Shown here in pieces: positions 8,626 through 46,520 of a stretch of 46,949 bases of DNA. The stretch's first letter is position 1. Every line of letters begins with the position of its first letter. Source of the stretch: Patescibacteria group bacterium (lineage in GTDB: Bacteria > Patescibacteriota > Gracilibacteria > Peribacterales > Peribacteraceae). The position numbers were made by a program, and so were the translations under genes. Below the pieces are notes generated by a model, which saw only the letters and a program-made list of their open reading frames with translations, was not told where the DNA came from and did no database searches. Location of the stretch: NCBI GenBank assembly GCA_018814875.1, contig JAHIYH010000027.1, positions 1 through 46,949 of the forward strand, given 5' to 3'.

Positions 8626-9099
8626 CTATCGCGAACCATACTTTTCATCTTCTGCTATTAATGCTTTACAAAGCGCCTCCCTTATTCGTGCATGATCCTC
8701 TTCAGTATATGGCGCATTGCTCAAGGCAATAGGTCCCGATACACAACAATCTTTCCAGCCAAACGGAATTCGATCGAGCTCATCAGGCGTGAGGACACGA
8801 CAACCATGTCCCTGCTCATTGTACCAAACAAGAATTCTACTACCTCCAGTACCCTTTCTAACATAGTAACCGCGGTTCTGAAATGTATGCGACCTTCCAC
8901 CTGAACTTTCGATTTGATCAAGGAGATTCGTATAAGCTTCTCTGCTAATTGAGCAGCCAACCCCAACCTGCAAATCTGAAGGCGCAATTTCATCTCGGTC
9001 TGTCCAGTCTTCTTGGCAAGACACAGCTGCAAGATCAATAAAAACTTGAGCAATATCTACTCGGTCTTCAGCAACCCATGATCTTGCTTCTACTACCAT
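8626..9099 (-). CDS. Unknown soluble protein
   Basis: 157 residues starting MVVEARSWVAEDRVDIAQVF. No signal peptide, membrane span or family motif recognised. It is acidic and mixed alpha/beta, with four cysteines and a central GGSRILVWYNEQGHGCRVLT segment that looks like a beta-hairpin core. It lies on the same strand as the MazF-like gene and between boundary repeats C and D, so it belongs to the accessory stretch. It could be a defence, immunity or metabolic cassette gene; no function is claimed. Confidence 0.7.
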   Translation of the reverse strand: MVVEARSWVAEDRVDIAQVFIDLAAVSCQEDWTDRDEIAPSDLQVGVGCSISREAYTNLLDQIESSGGRSHTFQNRGYYVRKGTGGSRILVWYNEQGHGCRVLTPDELDRIPFGWKDCCVSGPIALSNAPYTEEDHARIREALCKALIAEDEKYGSR

Positions 9100-12055: not shown

Positions 12056-12366
12056 AAAAAGGAAACCAAGGAATCCAAAGAAACCAAGGAATCCAAGGGG
12101 CTACCTTAAAACATCTATCAAGGTTTATCCGCCTTCACATAAAACCTCCGGCGTAAGCTGGAGGATGAATGCGTTCTTTGTTGGTGGCGATACTGCTATC
12201 CGTCGCGGCTCGGCCGCGCCGAGACGGGCGGCGGATTTCGCGTGCTACGCCGAAGGCGAGTGGGAAGACACCTCCTGCGTAAGCTGGCGGAGCTTCATGT
12301 CGATAAAAACATCACCTACTTTGGATTCCTTGGATTCCTTGGTTTCTTTGGATTCTTTTCTTTGGT
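12056..12366. repeat. AATCCAAAG/AAACCAAGG inverted repeat with 170-bp insert
   Basis: The left arm (12056-12098) and right arm (12319-12366) iterate a 9-bp unit alternating AAACCAAGG and AATCCAAAG. The central core (GGGGCTACCTT to CATCAAGGTTTAT, then GTCGATAAAAACATCAC) matches the core of the element at 15779-15972. Here the core is split by about 170 bp (12129-12298). This fills the 350-bp gap between dnaA and thrS. Confidence 0.8.
12129..12298. repeat. 170-bp GC-rich insertion within the repeat core
   Basis: The insert splits a core that is continuous at 15852-15900. Its ends carry related palindromes, CCTCCGGCGTAAGCTGGAGG and CCTCCTGCGTAAGCTGGCGG, and the middle holds a CGGCTCGGCCGCGCCGAG palindrome. 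TTTAT on the left and TTCAT on the right resemble a degraded 5-bp target duplication. No coding capacity is evident. Resembles a MITE or REP-type element. Confidence 0.55.
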
Positions 12367-14331: not shown

Positions 14332-15255
14332 GTGTTCGAAGCCTTCGCCATCGGCCCCTTCATTATCTGGATGCGTGTGGTGTTCCTTCTGCTGGGCGTG
14401 TGGCTTGCAACAGAATTTTTCCTTCGGCTCTCAAACAGTGCTCATCTATCGTTTCAACATTTCCGTGATCATGCACTTGGGTATTTGATTTCGTTTATTC
14501 TGAGCGGACGTGCGATTGCGATACTCGCTGAGTATCGCATCTATATACTTGATCCGATGAGAATCTTTGTCTTCTGGGACGGTGGTTTCAGCTTCTTGGG
14601 TGGTGCGATGGGTGTTGCACTGCTTCTGTATTGGGCTACTCGTGCACAACGCGCTACGTTCCTGCAATGGCTGGATGTGCTTTTGCCTGCGACTACCTTT
14701 GGGCTCTTCTTCGACTGGGTTGGGAAGTTTGCAGGAGGAAAGGCGTATGGTAAGCCGACAGATCTTATCTGGGGTGTGACGTACGATACGATTAGTGTGC
14801 GTTACACGGTTCCGATTCATCCGGTGCAGCTTTATTACGCTATTTTCTTTCTTTTGCTTACATTTGGATTGCTCATTATTCGCAAGTACACCAAGCGTGC
14901 TGGTGCAGAGACATTGTTTGGTATTCTACTCGCGAGCTTTGCAACGTTTTTCTTTGAATATTTCCGTGGAGATTTCAGCATTCCGGTATTTGCAACTCAG
15001 CTCGATTTTGTAGTGCTTATAGCACTATTCGCGAGTCTTGGTGTCTTTGCAGCTGTAGAGCTTTCCTTATCACGGATTGGAATGATCATCTACGAAATTG
15101 CACTTGTGGGTGTGTTTGGAGGGTACATCTTTGTACGATCAATGCTGACTTACGCAACATATGAGTTGAGGTTTAGCCAGTTCCTTGCAGTTCTCGCCGT
15201 ACTTTCTATAGTGGTGTATGTACTTGTGCATCGGAGAAGGTATCCGCATTTATAA
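14332..15255 (+). CDS. lgt: Prolipoprotein diacylglyceryl transferase-like protein
   Basis: 307 residues from the GTG at 14332. The frame is open further upstream (ATG at 14272), but that part lies in an inverted repeat, and a -10 sits just before the GTG. The N-terminus FEAFAIGPFIIW matches the usual Lgt opening. FWDGGFSFLGGAMG, the signature GKFAGGKAYGKPTDLIWGV and PIHPVQLYYAIFFLLL follow in family order, and FEYFRGD corresponds to the late ExFR motif. About seven membrane helices plus an extra C-terminal pair. Lgt transfers diacylglycerol to the lipobox cysteine of prelipoproteins. The lipid-binding motifs are more diverged than in model bacteria. Confidence 0.88.
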   Translation: MFEAFAIGPFIIWMRVVFLLLGVWLATEFFLRLSNSAHLSFQHFRDHALGYLISFILSGRAIAILAEYRIYILDPMRIFVFWDGGFSFLGGAMGVALLLYWATRAQRATFLQWLDVLLPATTFGLFFDWVGKFAGGKAYGKPTDLIWGVTYDTISVRYTVPIHPVQLYYAIFFLLLTFGLLIIRKYTKRAGAETLFGILLASFATFFFEYFRGDFSIPVFATQLDFVVLIALFASLGVFAAVELSLSRIGMIIYEIALVGVFGGYIFVRSMLTYATYELRFSQFLAVLAVLSIVVYVLVHRRRYPHL

Positions 15256-15371
15256 GTAAGGTAAGTAAAGTATGTAAGGTAAGTAAGGTAAGTAAAGTAT
15301 GTAAGGTAGGTTGTTGGTATACTTACATTACCTACAATACCTACAATACTTACAATACCTACAATACCTTC
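15256..15371. repeat. Period-9 inverted repeat (GTAAGGTAA units)
   Basis: The left arm iterates GTAAGGTAA/GTAAAGTAT. The right arm iterates ACAATACCT/ACAATACTT. The arms are imperfectly complementary and homogenised within themselves. It lies directly after the lgt stop. Confidence 0.8.
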
Positions 15372-15415: not shown

Positions 15416-15778
15416 ATGCAAACAACTCTTCTCTCCTCAATCAAATCCTACATCGAGCCTTGGCTTCTTTTTGTTTCCGAAGATCCTGTTCTACGAATGT
15501 GGCAGGGCTCACTTATCTTTGTGGGTGTGCTTGCGATCTTTCTTGTGTTCTATACAACGCGTGATGTGATTCTAAGAACACACTCGTTCCTATATATGCT
15601 TTTTTCCATTCTATTGGTTGCTCTGCTTCCGGGTGTTGGCTTTCTCATGTATATACTCATTCGTCCTGCACGCACTATTAAGGAGCGTGAACTAGAGAAG
15701 ATGATCCAGAATATTTTGTGTGATCATGAGAAGATCTCTAAGGAGAAGAAGAGTGTAAAGAAGACGGTGAAAGTATAA
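15416..15778 (+). CDS. Small membrane protein with charged C-terminal tail
   Basis: 120 residues from the ATG at 15416, chosen because a -10 TACACT lies 7 bp upstream. Two hydrophobic helices (SLIFVGVLAIFLVFYTT and MLFSILLVALLPGVGFLMYI, about residues 31-85) are followed by RPARTIKERELEKMIQNILC and a lysine-rich tail. The short loop between helices suggests a hairpin with both ends in the cytoplasm. No family recognised. The neighbouring small membrane protein gene may be functionally linked. Confidence 0.72.
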   Translation: MQTTLLSSIKSYIEPWLLFVSEDPVLRMWQGSLIFVGVLAIFLVFYTTRDVILRTHSFLYMLFSILLVALLPGVGFLMYILIRPARTIKERELEKMIQNILCDHEKISKEKKSVKKTVKV

Positions 15779-15972
15779 AGAAACCAAGGAATCCAAAGAA
15801 ACTAATGAAAAGAAACCAAGGAATCCAAAGAAACCAAGGAAACCAAAGGGAGTGATGTTTTTATCGACATAAACCTTGATGGATGTTTCAAGGTAGCCCC
15901 TTGGATTCTTAGGTTTCCTTGGTTTCTTTGGATTCCTTGGTTTCTTTGGATTCCTTGGTTTCTTCGGATTCT
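15779..15972. repeat. AAACCAAGG/AATCCAAAG inverted repeat, intact core
   Basis: Left arm 15779-15849 and right arm 15901-15972 iterate the same 9-bp units as the element before thrS. The core (15852-15900) runs GATGTTTTTATCGAC to CAAGGTAGCCCC without interruption, in opposite orientation to the copy at 12.1 kb. Only these two elements in the window share a core sequence. Confidence 0.85.
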
Positions 15973-15996
15973 TTTTGATCCCCGAACAGTTTATAT

Positions 15997-16466: not shown

Positions 16467-16563
16467 TAGTGAATAGTTAATAGTGAATAGTGAATAGTGG
16501 CTGCAAGGTTATTTATTCTGTGTAGAATGTTCACTATTCACTTTTCATTATTCACTTTTCACT
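16467..16563. repeat. Period-7 inverted repeat (AATAGTG units)
   Basis: The left arm (16467-16500) iterates GAATAGT/TAATAGT. The right arm (16530-16563) iterates TTCACTATTCAC and TTCATTATTCAC. It lies between the small membrane protein gene and corA. Confidence 0.8.
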
Positions 16564-16657
16564 TAAATCCCAGAATGTTTGAAAATGATATGCATGTGAG
16601 AATTATTCTTGCACTTAAGCCATTTCACGTATTTAATACCTCCAACCCCTCTTTGTT

Positions 16658-22779: not shown

Positions 22780-22783
22780 AACA

Positions 22784-22895
22784 ATAGAGGAAATAAAAGG
22801 AACAGAAGAAATAGAAGAAATAGAAGGAACAGAAGAAATAGAGGATCCTCTATTTCTTCTATTTCCTTTCTTTCCTTTATTTCCTTTCTTTCCCG
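22784..22895. repeat. Period-9 inverted repeat (AGAAGAAAT units) before infB
   Basis: The left arm iterates AGAAGAAAT/AGAAGGAAC. The right arm iterates ATTTCTTCT/ATTTCCTTT/CTTTCCTTT. The two arms meet at GAGGATCCTC with almost no loop. It spans the whole gap between the DHH gene and infB. Confidence 0.85.
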
Positions 22896-34315: not shown

Positions 34316-34375
34316 GATAAGTGCTCAGTAAATTATCGCGAATGTAGCTTTATGCAGCTAAGATGTAGTGGATTT

Positions 34376-36232
34376 ATGGACATCCGCAATTTCTGCATCA
34401 TCGCTCACATTGATCACGGTAAGTCGACACTTGCTGATCGCATGATTGAGCAGACTGGCACACTTCAAAAGCGCCAGATGAAGGAGCAGCTACTCGATAC
34501 TATGGATCTGGAGCGAGAGCGGGGTATTACGATCAAACTTCAGCCTGTTCGTATGCAACATAAAGACATAGAGTTGAATCTGATTGATACTCCTGGGCAC
34601 ACAGATTTTCGTTACGAAGTCAGCAGATCTCTCGCTGCATGCGAAGGAGCAATTCTGCTTGTAGATGCATCGCAGGGAATTCAGGCACAAACTTTGGCGG
34701 TTCTTTATATGGCGATGGAGCATGATCTAACGATTATTCCTGTGCTTAATAAGATTGATCTTCCTGCAGCAGATCCAGAGCGTGTGAGTGTGGAAGTGAT
34801 GAAGCTTCTGGGATGTAAGAAGGAAGATATCCTACTCATTTCTGCAAAGGATGGGAGTGGGGTTGTGGAAGTGTTAGATGAGGTTATTGATAAGATACCA
34901 CCACCTTCTTTGGAACTTGGAACTTGGAACTTAGATAAAGGTGCCAAGTGCCAAGTGCCAAGTGCCAAAGGCAGTAGGGCTCTTATATTTGATGCTGTAA
35001 TGGATCCATATAGAGGAGCAGTAGCATACGTTAGAGTTGTGAGTGGGTTGTTTGAGAAGGGGCAGAAAGTGCATTTGCTTGGCACAAAGATGCAGGTTGA
35101 GGTAATGGATGTAGGTCACTTTGCGCCAAGTTATGCTTCTGACAAAAAAATCACAGAAGGGGAGATTGGCTACATCGTCACTGGAGCGAAAGATGTAACT
35201 CATGTGCGAACAGGAGATACCATTGCATCATCGCAAGATCTACAACCACTGCCTGGGTATAAAGAAGTGCAACCAATGGTCTTTGCAGGACTTTATCCAT
35301 CGCAGACGGATGATTATCAACAACTAAGAGAATCATTGGAGAAGTTGGCACTAAATGATGCGGCTCTAAAGTTTGAACCGGAACGCAATGCAGCACTAGG
35401 TAATGGATTTAGAAGTGGATTCCTTGGTCTTCTCCACATGGATATTGTTCAAGAACGTCTTGAGCGTGAACACGATTGTGATCTGATTATTACAGCCCCA
35501 AGTGTGATGTATGAGGTTAAGTTAAATTCAAAGAGTCCTGCATCAATTGTTCGTGCAAGTTTGATTAAAGCAGATGAGCCAGATGTTGCGATGATAAGCA
35601 ATCCTGCAGACTTTCCAGATCCAACTGTGATTTTGGAAGTTCGTGAACCGTGGGTAAAACTAGAAATAGTGTGCAGAAAAGAAGATGTTGGTTCGGTAAT
35701 GGAGATTACCCAGAAGCGACGTGGGGTGTATTCCTCATTAGAGTATCTTGATGCTGAGCTAGCACTTCTTCATTTTGAAGTACCGCTCGCAGGAATCGTC
35801 TTGGATTTTTTCGATCAACTCAAATCTTCTACAGCCGGTTACGGATCCATGAGTTATGAGCCGATTGGATATAGGGCAGGGGATTTGGTTAAAATGCAGA
35901 TTCTGCTTCTGGGGGAACCTTCGGAGGCTCTTAGTACCATTGTTCACAAGAGTGAGGCGCAGCAAGCAGGTTCTGTGATCTGTAAGATGCTCAAAAAATC
36001 CATTCCCAAAGCGCAGTATCAGATTCCGATTCAGGCAGCGATTGGAGCAAAGATTATTGCGCGAGAAACACTGTCGGCATTTAGAAAAGATGTAACAGAG
36101 AAGTTATATGGAGGAGATGTGTCTCGAAAGCAAAAACTCCTCAAAAAACAGAAGAAAGGAAAGAAGAGGATGAAAGCGATGGGGAAGGTTACTTTGACTC
36201 AAGAGGCGTTCTTGGCGGTTCTTAAACGATAA
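34376..36232 (+). CDS. lepA: Elongation factor 4 (LepA) with a repeat-derived insertion
   Basis: 618 residues from the ATG at 34376 (MDIRNFCIIAHIDHGKST); eight further upstream codons are open but untypical. G1 AHIDHGKST (10-18), G3 DTPGHTDF, G4 NKIDLPAADP, G5 SAKDGSGV. The EF4 C-terminal domain ends QKLLKKQKKGKKRMKAMG. LepA is a ribosome-associated GTPase linked to 30S assembly and translation under stress. Between PPPS and RALIFDA (about residues 176-199), where the family has a short linker, a period-7 inverted repeat is translated in frame as LELGTWNLDKGAKCQVPSAK. Confidence 0.97.
   Translation: MDIRNFCIIAHIDHGKSTLADRMIEQTGTLQKRQMKEQLLDTMDLERERGITIKLQPVRMQHKDIELNLIDTPGHTDFRYEVSRSLAACEGAILLVDASQGIQAQTLAVLYMAMEHDLTIIPVLNKIDLPAADPERVSVEVMKLLGCKKEDILLISAKDGSGVVEVLDEVIDKIPPPSLELGTWNLDKGAKCQVPSAKGSRALIFDAVMDPYRGAVAYVRVVSGLFEKGQKVHLLGTKMQVEVMDVGHFAPSYASDKKITEGEIGYIVTGAKDVTHVRTGDTIASSQDLQPLPGYKEVQPMVFAGLYPSQTDDYQQLRESLEKLALNDAALKFEPERNAALGNGFRSGFLGLLHMDIVQERLEREHDCDLIITAPSVMYEVKLNSKSPASIVRASLIKADEPDVAMISNPADFPDPTVILEVREPWVKLEIVCRKEDVGSVMEITQKRRGVYSSLEYLDAELALLHFEVPLAGIVLDFFDQLKSSTAGYGSMSYEPIGYRAGDLVKMQILLLGEPSEALSTIVHKSEAQQAGSVICKMLKKSIPKAQYQIPIQAAIGAKIIARETLSAFRKDVTEKLYGGDVSRKQKLLKKQKKGKKRMKAMGKVTLTQEAFLAVLKR
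34906..34970 (+). repeat. In-frame period-7 inverted repeat inside lepA
   Basis: The left arm iterates TTGGAAC three times and the right arm iterates GCCAAGT four times. The arms are complementary except that one base of every unit differs consistently (A on the left, the complement of C on the right). The insertion lies at the linker after the GTPase domain. Confidence 0.85.
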
Positions 36233-42430: not shown

Positions 42431-44959
42431 CTATTTTATGGCTTCTTCTAGCCCAAAACTCCATGCTTTTCGGAGTGTTTTGAGGTCTTCAGATAATAAT
42501 GATTCGCCATTTCTGGAAATATTCAGAGTAGGGGAGTTATTAGTATTTCCAAGAGAAATCAGCTTTACATCCAGATGTCCGGCTATTTTCTCGACAGCTT
42601 CTTCATTTTCTGGATTTACTTCGATCACAAAGCCACCGGTCTCGGAGAAGAGAAGTGCATCAGGACGCAGTGAACTTTGTAGATTTTTCAGATCAATGCT
42701 CAATCCGATGTCTCCACCGATTTTTCGTTGGGGTAATGTCATCTCGAATAGTGTCATAATAAGGCCGCCATTAGAAATATCGTGACAAGAGTTTAGGAGA
42801 CCATCTTCAATCAAACGTGTGACCAGTGCTATCTGTGAGGAGACTTCTTTTAGATCAGGAACCGGTACGTTCTTCCCAAGAAGTGCGTCACGTGGAGCCC
42901 CTGACATATTTTCCAGAATCTCGTAGTATCCAGATCCTCCGCACTCATCCTTGCGTTCACCTATAAGTAAGAGTTTTGAACCTGATTTCTTTAACTGCAT
43001 GGTGATTGCTTTGCGTGCGTCTTTCATAATTCCTGCACAACAGACAATTGCGGTTGGATCGATGGAGCTTCCATCTGCTTTGCCATTGTAGAAGCTGACG
43101 TTTCCGGAGATGACGGGGACGTTTTCTCCATCAACTTTTACTCCTTCGGTTGCATCTATAATTCCTCGTACACTTTCTTCAAACTGCCAAAGTTGCTCAG
43201 GAATTTCCGGATTACCAAAGTTTAGACAATCTGTAACAGCTCTTGGTTTTGCGCCAACTGCAGCCACATTACGCATGGATTCAACGGATGCATTCAGTCC
43301 TTCTAGATACGGAGAAATTCTTCCGTAACGACCATTTCCATCGCCGGCGACTGCAACGCCTCTCCACTTTTCATCTTCGCTCAAATCCCAACCGGGATGA
43401 GATCCTGTATGCACAAAACTTTCTAAATTTTGCAGAGGTGCAATCACTCCTGCATCTGCTTCACCAGGTTCTATAATTGTGTTTCCAATCACGTTCTTGT
43501 CGTAGTGACGAATAATCGGAGAAGTGGACGCGAAATTTGGGTGTACGATCATCCTTTTGAAGACATCAGTGATAGTTGTTTCAAACGTTGCGCGTTGCGC
43601 GTTGCGCGTTGAACGTTTCGCATTACTAAACGCGTAACGCGTAACGCGTAACGCGTTACCACTGCATTCAATATTCGGTTCAGTGAAATCCACCTCCATT
43701 TTCTTCGTCGGACGTGCGTATTGCAGGCCACAAGTGATGTCGAGTGCCTTAGCTTCCACCACTATCTCTCCTTTATGTGTAAGTGTGTACACGCCACCTT
43801 CCCTAACTTTACCCACACAGCTCGCTCGTGCATTTTCGGCGATACTTGGGAGGTCCCAATCTTCATTGTAATGCTTAAGTATGTGCTCGGTGATGTCTGG
43901 ATGACACATCCAACAGAAACGTTCTTGTGTTTCTGCACATGCGATTACTTCTGCAGGCAAATCGGGGATAGAGACATGAACTTTATCCAGATTAACATCA
44001 GCTCCAAACCCCTGATCGGCGACTTGTTCCACTGATGCACAAATCACTCCGCCTGCTCCCAGATCTTTAAAGGAAACCTTATCAAGCTTTTTGGCTTCTG
44101 CAAGCCAATCGAACAACGCATATGTTGATGCAAGCAGATGACGTTCCAAGAATGGATTAGGCTCCTGTACAGCGCCTGTATTTTGTTCATCATCTTCCTC
44201 TTCCAGTGTTGTGCTCGCAAAAGAAGCGCCACCAAAACCAGATCGATCCGTTGGTTTACCTACAAAGATAATATCGTACCCAACTTTGCCCGCTTCCTCT
44301 GGTACGTAGCTATGAATAACTTCATCTTCGCGTACAATTCCTATTGCAATGGCGTTCACCAGGCAATTTGAGTTATAAGACGCGTCAAAAACAGTGTCGC
44401 CTCCAAGATTTGGAATACCCAATGGATTTCCGTAGCCAGCAATTCCGCGTGCCACTTCTGATGCGATAGTTTTACTCTCTTCTGTTTTTAAATACCCAAG
44501 TCGTAGCAGATCTAAACAGCCGACTATTCGAGCGCCCATACAAACAACATCACGAACGACTCCTCCAATTCCAGTTGCTGCTCCTTCGTATGGAACAATT
44601 TGTGATGGATGGTTGTGAGACTCATGACTCATCACCAATCCCCAACGTTTTCCGTTTGGTCCATCTGTTATCGCAACGATTCCACTGTCTTCTTTTGGAC
44701 CGAGGATGATGTGCTTTCCGGACGTTGGGAAGTTCTTCAGGAACCTGGCTGAAGATTTATAACTGCAGTGTTCCGAACCCTGAATTCCCCATATCACTGC
44801 TTCTACCAACGTTGGATCACGCCCAAGCATTTCCGAAATCTTACGTGCTTCCTCAATCGTTAATCCTATTTGATATTTCTTTAGCAACTTCAAAACATCC
44901 TCGTCAGACATTTTGCTAAAGGGGAGAGTGGTGACCGATGTATTTGGCTCTGTATTCAT
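42431..44959 (-). CDS. purL: Phosphoribosylformylglycinamidine synthase II (PurL) with insertion
   Basis: 842 residues, about 100 longer than the stand-alone small PurL of Bacillus. GSEHCSYKSSARFLK (about 61-75), HESHNHPSQIVPYEGAATG and GGVVRDVVCMGARIVG are the substrate/ATP motifs of the first half; CLNFGNPEIPEQ and SGNVSFYN mark the second. The enzyme converts FGAR to FGAM in purine synthesis with PurQ and PurS, which are not in the window. About residues 434-458 (ALRVTRYAFSNAKRSTRNAQ) are encoded by a period-7 inverted repeat inserted in frame at the junction between halves. Confidence 0.96.
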   Translation of the reverse strand: MNTEPNTSVTTLPFSKMSDEDVLKLLKKYQIGLTIEEARKISEMLGRDPTLVEAVIWGIQGSEHCSYKSSARFLKNFPTSGKHIILGPKEDSGIVAITDGPNGKRWGLVMSHESHNHPSQIVPYEGAATGIGGVVRDVVCMGARIVGCLDLLRLGYLKTEESKTIASEVARGIAGYGNPLGIPNLGGDTVFDASYNSNCLVNAIAIGIVREDEVIHSYVPEEAGKVGYDIIFVGKPTDRSGFGGASFASTTLEEEDDEQNTGAVQEPNPFLERHLLASTYALFDWLAEAKKLDKVSFKDLGAGGVICASVEQVADQGFGADVNLDKVHVSIPDLPAEVIACAETQERFCWMCHPDITEHILKHYNEDWDLPSIAENARASCVGKVREGGVYTLTHKGEIVVEAKALDITCGLQYARPTKKMEVDFTEPNIECSGNALRVTRYAFSNAKRSTRNAQRATFETTITDVFKRMIVHPNFASTSPIIRHYDKNVIGNTIIEPGEADAGVIAPLQNLESFVHTGSHPGWDLSEDEKWRGVAVAGDGNGRYGRISPYLEGLNASVESMRNVAAVGAKPRAVTDCLNFGNPEIPEQLWQFEESVRGIIDATEGVKVDGENVPVISGNVSFYNGKADGSSIDPTAIVCCAGIMKDARKAITMQLKKSGSKLLLIGERKDECGGSGYYEILENMSGAPRDALLGKNVPVPDLKEVSSQIALVTRLIEDGLLNSCHDISNGGLIMTLFEMTLPQRKIGGDIGLSIDLKNLQSSLRPDALLFSETGGFVIEVNPENEEAVEKIAGHLDVKLISLGNTNNSPTLNISRNGESLLSEDLKTLRKAWSFGLEEAIK
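43583..43661. repeat. In-frame period-7 inverted repeat inside purL
   Basis: The plus-strand left arm iterates GCGCGTT (three units) and the right arm iterates AACGCGT/AACGCGTT. Complementary except for one base per unit (G on the left, A in the complement of the right), the same arm-specific pattern as in lepA. Confidence 0.88.
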
Positions 44960-44982: not shown

Positions 44983-45067
44983 AATGAATAATGAAAAGTT
45001 AATAATGAAAAATTATGAACGAATATTCTTGTCATTATTCATTTTTCATTATTCATTTTTCATTTTC
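44983..45067. repeat. Period-7 inverted repeat (AATGAAA units) before murJ
   Basis: The left arm iterates AATGAATAATGAAAA. The right arm iterates TCATTATTCATTTTTCATT. The frame through the right arm is open and makes a spurious N-terminal extension of murJ. Confidence 0.8.
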
Positions 45068-46421: not shown

Positions 46422-46431
46422 ATAGAGACAT

Positions 46432-46520
46432 TCGTATATCGTATTTAGTATTTCGTATTTCGGAAAGAGTCATATGTTTTGATACTAAATACGAAATATG
46501 AGATACGCTATACGATTTCA
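46432..46520. repeat. Period-7 inverted repeat (TCGTATT units) after murJ
   Basis: The left arm (46432-46462) iterates TCGTATT/TAGTATT. The right arm (46480-46516) reads GATACTAAATACGAAATATG and continues. Imperfect complements. Confidence 0.8.

Follow-up and report, generated by a model that had tools for sequence, protein, structure and literature searches.

The essential purine-synthesis gene purL in the analyzed stretch of DNA from a Patescibacteria group bacterium (46,949 nucleotides; hereafter, the window) contains, within its coding sequence, an inverted repeat composed of iterated heptamers. This raises the question of whether the segment is a working part of the enzyme, a product of chance, or a piece of repeat DNA that the protein accommodates. 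The last is what it looks like: repeat DNA, neutral or selfish, that a linker of the protein puts up with and that is not part of the enzyme, since the genome carries about 300 such repeats and the relatives carry a different seven-letter word at the same spot.

The inverted repeat within PurL

The features of the window are listed in Table 1. The purL ORF scores above the cut-off of the FGAM synthase II family, and two stretches each of the AIRS and AIRS_C domains were found in its product. The repeat is read in frame on the minus strand and lies in the linker that joins both AIRS/AIRS_C halves. Thus, repeat detection, the ORF, and the domains agree with the preliminary description, in which a period-7 inverted repeat had been placed at the junction of the PurL halves. 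Its characterization of the encoded stretch as Arg/Ala-rich is roughly right, as 5 R and 5 A occur in the 25 residues. When PurL was compared by phmmer with the solved Thermus PurL (3viu), the match was interrupted either side of the repeat region, query residues 373-457 standing against 54 residues in the chain. A structure model based on four sequences reached a pLDDT of only 34 and was discarded.

The two arms form a 25-bp stem in which each unit has about one G.T mismatch (plus strand). Each arm is uniform within itself, and the units of the two arms are one base apart (GCGTTGC vs GCGTTAC). The DNA fold of the repeat has an energy of -28.5 kcal/mol (z -2.5), and the mRNA strand is only weakly special in its folding energy (z -1.6). 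No second copy of the complete hairpin with its loop was found in the genome sequence examined, but single arms do recur: a near-copy of arm 2 is present at L105:5730-5755 (C61), and the arm 1 unit, or AACGCGC, is read in frame within two further genes (L013:15772 and L014:14708).

Table 1 Genes, hairpins, and repeats located in the window
Feature	Position	Strand	Remarks
purL, phosphoribosylformylglycinamidine synthase subunit PurL	42431..44959	-	842 aa; TIGR01736, 609.8 bits (cut-off 525.75)
Iterated inverted repeat inside PurL	43584..43659	-	Encodes NALRVTRYAFSNAKRSTRNAQRATF
PurL arm 1, CGTTGCG x3.7	43586..43611	+	Encodes 3' half STRNAQRATF on minus strand
PurL loop between arms	43612..43628	+	Single copy in sequence examined
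PurL arm 2, AACGCGT x4	43629..43656	+	Encodes NALRVTRYAF on minus strand
Intergenic period-7 hairpin directly upstream of purL	44983..45066	+	AATGAAA family
lepA, elongation factor 4	34352..36232	+	TIGR01393, 810 bits
LepA insertion hairpin, (TTGGAAC)3.3 then (GTGCCAA)4	34910..34968	+	Linker after GTPase domain
Period-9 inverted pair	12059..12358	+	Same family as the 15777..15974 hairpin
Intergenic period-9 hairpin	15253..15369	+	TAAGTAAGG
Period-9 hairpin	15777..15974	+	AAAGAAACC/AAGGAATCC; conserved loop common to other loci
Intergenic period-7 hairpin	16467..16564	+	TAGTGAA
Period-9 hairpin	22783..22893	+	AATAGAAGA
Period-7 hairpin	46431..46515	+	TTCGTAT

Arrays of period 7, 8, and 9 across the genome

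The genome-wide occurrence of such repeats was examined in 976 kb of the 1.42 Mb of this genome and in 554 kb of the about 1 Mb of G001, a genome of the same genus. In the former, tandem-repeat rows of periods 7, 8, and 9 number 181, 41, and 89, respectively, while a Markov-3 shuffle of the 976 kb gave 12 tandem-repeat rows and none with a period of 7-9. A chance origin of the PurL repeat is therefore excluded. The heptanucleotide arrays exceed chance in the comparison with the lag-7 null as well as with the shuffle. A reverse-complement partner within 300 bp accompanies 177 of the 457 merged arrays, as compared with 6 for the control places. After merging, about 305 array elements remain, of which about 130 are paired with their reverse complement. 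Mechanically called ORFs contain 71 arrays (10 paired and 61 without an inverted partner); the remaining elements are intergenic and show no strong preference for gene ends. A role as terminators was rejected, as paired elements occupy 23 of 153 convergent, 71 of 476 tandem, and 20 of 152 divergent gaps, with no concentration at gene ends.

The PurL repeat and the hairpin in LepA had previously been taken as two independent in-frame cases that share a design with unrelated sequences, and that argue for an active process rather than chance. The common design and the unrelated sequences hold good; however, the two are not isolated cases but 2 of the 71 in-ORF arrays among the roughly 305 elements. 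The argument for an active process becomes much stronger with the genome census and the relatives. Their independence has to be qualified, because the units belong to families dispersed within the genome and the array at a given site may be ancestral.

These families are evident from two counts. The 90 strict arrays fall into 44 unit classes, vs about 86 expected from random genomic 7-mers, and the LepA-type hairpin occurs at nine dispersed loci, most of them having one TTGGAAC-type and one TTGGCAC-type arm. Together, these unit classes and loci point to copying between places. Two coding arrays point to turnover in place: at L013:15770, one change is present in all the copies at the same codons (TTGCGCG x3 vs TTACGCG x3), and at L014:14705, the species differ by whole units ((CGCAACG)3 vs one copy).

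The amplified units are lineage-specific, and G001 has amplified others. A universal unit vocabulary was rejected, since (TTGGAAC)3, with 16 occurrences here, turned up in just a single other genome among 380 from the phylum. The unit classes shared with G001 number 14, vs a null mean of about 5 and null maxima of 11-14. Judging from these two results, the sharing of units between genomes is modest. A tendency of units to spread locally on the contig was also considered; the signal is weak (P 0.04 at 5 kb) and was not observed in G001. A mirror order of the arm variants was weakly positive but biased by the choice of arms.

Several hairpins have conserved loops. Those composed of 8-mers (ATTGTTCC/ATGGTTGG; L065:789, L065:8336, L068:8368, L068:18076, L012:7617, and L085:11561) have a conserved loop of about 38 nt, with 12 copies here and 3 in G001, and are a stronger candidate for a genuine mobile element. 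The 9-mer hairpins with the conserved loop CTACCTTGAAA..TCAAGGTTTATGTCGATAAAAACATCA are located at 12059-12358 and 15777-15974 of the window, L011:17158, and L097:1780; six copies of this loop occur in this genome and none was found in G001. As a separate observation, a 23-bp unit, TACTTGTACTGAATACATTGAAG, is repeated 14.7 times (96% match) from 46613 to the contig end at 46949, unlike the 7-9 bp class, and this repeat is probably the reason why the contig ends there.

Array sites in the relatives

The PurL sequences of 24 family genomes, four of them of the same genus (G000, which is this genome, G001, G002, and G004), were aligned. An inverted period-7 array occupies this linker in each of the four same-genus genomes in which PurL was found, and the unit is different every time: GCGTTAC/GCAACGC in G000, AACGTCY in G001, AAAGTCG in G004, and AAGTCAC in G002, which are about 1-2 changes per unit apart. 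The hairpin is retained despite the sequence change, the inserts having z values of -4.0 (G001), -6.0 (G004), and -2.0 (G002). In the fifth same-genus genome, G003 (81% complete), no PurL match was found. The same residues were not found without DNA repetition in the PurL genes of the family outside the genus: 18 of these 20 linkers are short and lack these residues, and the other two hold a different repeat (an AAGTTGC direct array in G021 and a GC-rich palindrome in G028). The insert peptide is not conserved even inside the genus, and most other genera have no insert. The relatives place the lineage in Peribacteria; one of them, at 62% identity, is a genome named Candidatus Peribacteria. The closest record, labelled Kiritimatiellales bacterium (L155, JAIPIN010000009.1), has a PurL with 85% identity over 842 aa, and its public name looks wrong.

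The occupation of few codon sites is also found in other proteins. All 9 lag-7 matches in PurL fall at one site (5 of 24 genomes; null 0-0.2), all 5 in LepA at one site in the linker after the GTPase domain (3 of 19 genomes), and 19 of the 20 in MurD at three sites (14 of 19 genomes), where the unit differs in almost every genome. At the LepA site, too, the units differ from species to species. For LepA and MurD, the lag-7 null is likewise 0-0.2, and lags other than 7 are near the null. The MurD site at column ~190 has been gained or lost between genera. MurD (L080:9166-10458; relatives L200-L218) is a better system than PurL for following repeat turnover. Besides LepA and MurD, the genes with arrays inside them include those for GMP synthase, TsaD, UvrC, and carbamoyl-phosphate synthase, as recognized by eye from the sequences. 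For 5 of 11 strict coding arrays, an array exists at the same codons in G001, vs 20 of 3300 random columns; the unit in G001 is different at 3 of these 5, and less strict cases seen by eye add more.

The inserts of PurL, LepA, and the probable carbamoyl-phosphate synthase large chain (CarB) are all situated between domains. The last of these genes (L016:7330-10689) carries a GGACTTC hairpin at 8923-8997 between its parts, which is absent in G001. Another ORF of 368 aa contains in frame a near-perfect iterated palindrome of 58 bp (L097:17106-17163), which G001 lacks; the order of its variants is equal in both arms, as expected from fold-back copying. The LepA linkers of other genera, inspected by eye, contain in frame the GC-rich palindromes CCCTCTCC..GGGAGAGGG (L181 of G006 and L183 of G007) or the REP-like GTCATGCTGAGCGTAGTCGAAGCATG (L184 of G018).

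Between genes, an element similar to the hairpin directly upstream of purL is present at the corresponding place in G001. Orthologous intergenic sites of the two genomes are often occupied by another family or period (7 to 9, 8 to 7), and this same-site occupation may in part reflect repeats landing wherever room exists. The array abundance is 5.4 per 10 kb in the genus vs 1.2 in the rest of the family, values that rest on a small sample of about 10 kb per genome.

Origin of the arrays

In E. coli, SbcCD cuts hairpins. SbcD was detected in just 1 of the 36 relatives searched and in no genome of the family, as opposed to 13 of 14 control genomes; because of this non-detection, hairpins may go uncut in the family, and the apparent absence would let palindromes persist. 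MutS above the cut-off was not found in any family genome searched. These losses do not explain the array abundance, since they are family-wide and the excess of arrays is most marked within the genus. The Y-family polymerase (IMS) was absent from the five same-genus genomes and occurs in roughly half of the remaining genera; loss of DinB as the cause was rejected, as several genera with few arrays lack it too. Reverse transcriptases were dismissed likewise: this genome has two, but none was found in G001 (82% complete), which also has arrays. Two Y1_Tnp genes occur in this genome, and Y1 is absent from several relatives. One of the two genes (2201-2533 in L017:1980-2650) is flanked by GCAGCGGTTCGAAAACCGCTGC-type palindromes, not heptamers, and is likely a RAYT with its REP sequences. 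In the genome and the relatives searched, no transposase or reverse transcriptase fits the array distribution.

We consider it rather likely that the PurL segment is a non-functional, tolerated repeat, an in-frame member of the genome-wide class of iterated hairpins, which would have arisen by slippage, fold-back, ectopic copying, and linker selection. Arrays would lengthen, shorten, and become homogenized as replication slips, preferably by 7 nt at a time. A nascent strand that folds back and serves as its own template would turn an array into a hairpin, and each arm would then be homogenized separately, which could account for the single mismatch per unit. Arrays and hairpins would occasionally be copied elsewhere and so generate unit families; these would need copying between distant loci, by a machinery that is only hypothetical. 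Long hairpins would stay uncut, SbcCD seeming absent. Selection would keep coding copies only where the length preserves the frame and the site is a linker, and this may be why few sites are occupied in many species despite the change of unit. The comparisons establish the occupation of the sites, whereas the mutational steps and the neutrality of the repeats are inferred from it.

A miniature mobile element, palindromic and of the RPE/MITE/REP type, that a transposase carries in frame into genes would also be compatible with hairpin families that have the same asymmetric arms at unlinked loci, with the loops conserved in 12 (8-mer) and 6 (9-mer) copies, and with the two Y1_Tnp genes; RPEs behave exactly so in Rickettsia (PMC10969869). 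It is nevertheless an unlikely origin. At the arrays examined, neither a matching transposase nor fixed ends nor, without a systematic search for it, target duplication was recognized; the palindromes beside the Y1 gene at L017:2201 are not heptameric, and Y1 is missing in several relatives. Moreover, 61 of the 71 coding arrays lack an inverted partner, the PurL loop has no second copy, and the site stays constant while unit, period, and length vary. An ancestral array at each site that drifts only through point changes spread by slippage, without copying between loci, would suit the small distances among the congener PurL units, the change common to all copies at L013:15770, and the G001 PurL unit, which was found nowhere else in the G001 sequence examined. 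Such drift is quite improbable as the whole explanation, because units are common to many unlinked loci (AACTTGG at nine), far above random 7-mers, because the period shifts at some orthologous intergenic sites, and because sites such as MurD column ~190 are gained and lost between genera.

The location between domains and the retention of the hairpin in all four congeners might suggest that the hairpin or the Arg-rich peptide is functional, for example, in ribosome pausing at a domain border or in RNA binding. This is very improbable: the peptide varies within the genus and is lacking in most other genera, most coding arrays are not hairpins, and the mRNA strand folds in a weakly special manner. 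The genome is a 70-contig metagenome bin, and hence an assembly artefact also had to be weighed; it is hardly credible, as four same-genus genomes, each assembled separately, have arrays of differing units in frame at these codons and all the reading frames remain open. Apart from these, the linkers might be standing docking sites for exchangeable heptamer words, where the array persists for long periods and its unit is swapped by template-using copying from the genome repertoire; we regard this as a speculative and unlikely variant. If true, new in-frame linker peptides are generated in essential enzymes.

The tolerated repeat that we favor resembles several known systems. The P6b stem-loop of the cyanobacterial tRNA-Leu(UAA) intron consists of heptanucleotide repeats, and together with the STRR repeats it represents 7-nt repeats with their complements. 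As here, a stem of 7-nt repeats lies at a fixed site and the repeat classes differ between related strains; to our knowledge, P6b/STRR have been described from one intron site and from copies between genes, and are not known to occur in coding sequences across the genome of a member of another phylum. REP/REPIN sequences with RAYT transposases are similarly small dispersed palindromes, and the Y1 transposase here has such palindromes adjacent to it. However, REP has a fixed, non-iterated consensus, whereas the heptamers here are iterated and the local RAYT palindrome is unrelated to them.

Rickettsia RPEs are in-frame palindromic insertions in genes (Ogata et al. 2000/2002, as summarized in PMC10969869). 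Palindromes (tens to ~150 bp in RPEs) that occur in families, in frame in unrelated housekeeping genes, and are tolerated by the proteins were found here as well. RPE families each have a consensus sequence and a conserved peptide. The arms here are iterated 7-mers of variable unit and length, with units that differ between species at one site; the LepA-type hairpin occurs at nine loci, while the PurL hairpin is single as a whole and only its arms recur. In many bacteria, heptamers are reported to outnumber all other long simple repeats (Mrazek 2007, summarized in PMC4679880), and a 7-nt polymerase contact has been proposed as the basis of slippage (reported in PMC4679880). Examples are the GGGNATC (PMC4692102) and TAACTGA (PMC4679880) repeats. 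Like these, the present arrays are tandem 7-mers dispersed in unit families; the known ones are mostly direct, one-unit, and intergenic, whereas here many units, inverted pairs, and in-frame positions in conserved genes are found. In Peribacteria genomes, strain variation is reported to consist mainly of indels, tens of bp long, that affect twelve proteins (PMC4736985). No account of hairpins made of iterated heptamers was found for this lineage in the open-access literature searched, which is not proof of absence. Heptamer repeats and in-frame palindromes are each known already; what looks new is their combination with unit replacement at the same site.

Three separately known oddities, namely heptamer repeats, coding palindromes, and the apparent loss of a hairpin nuclease, are thus joined in one genome. 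Alignments of many orthologous sites allow the origin of repeats, their change of unit, and their disappearance to be followed. The case also offers a route to test why bacteria prefer 7 nt as a repeat length. The essential proteins of this reduced genome accept in their linkers random peptide from repeat DNA.
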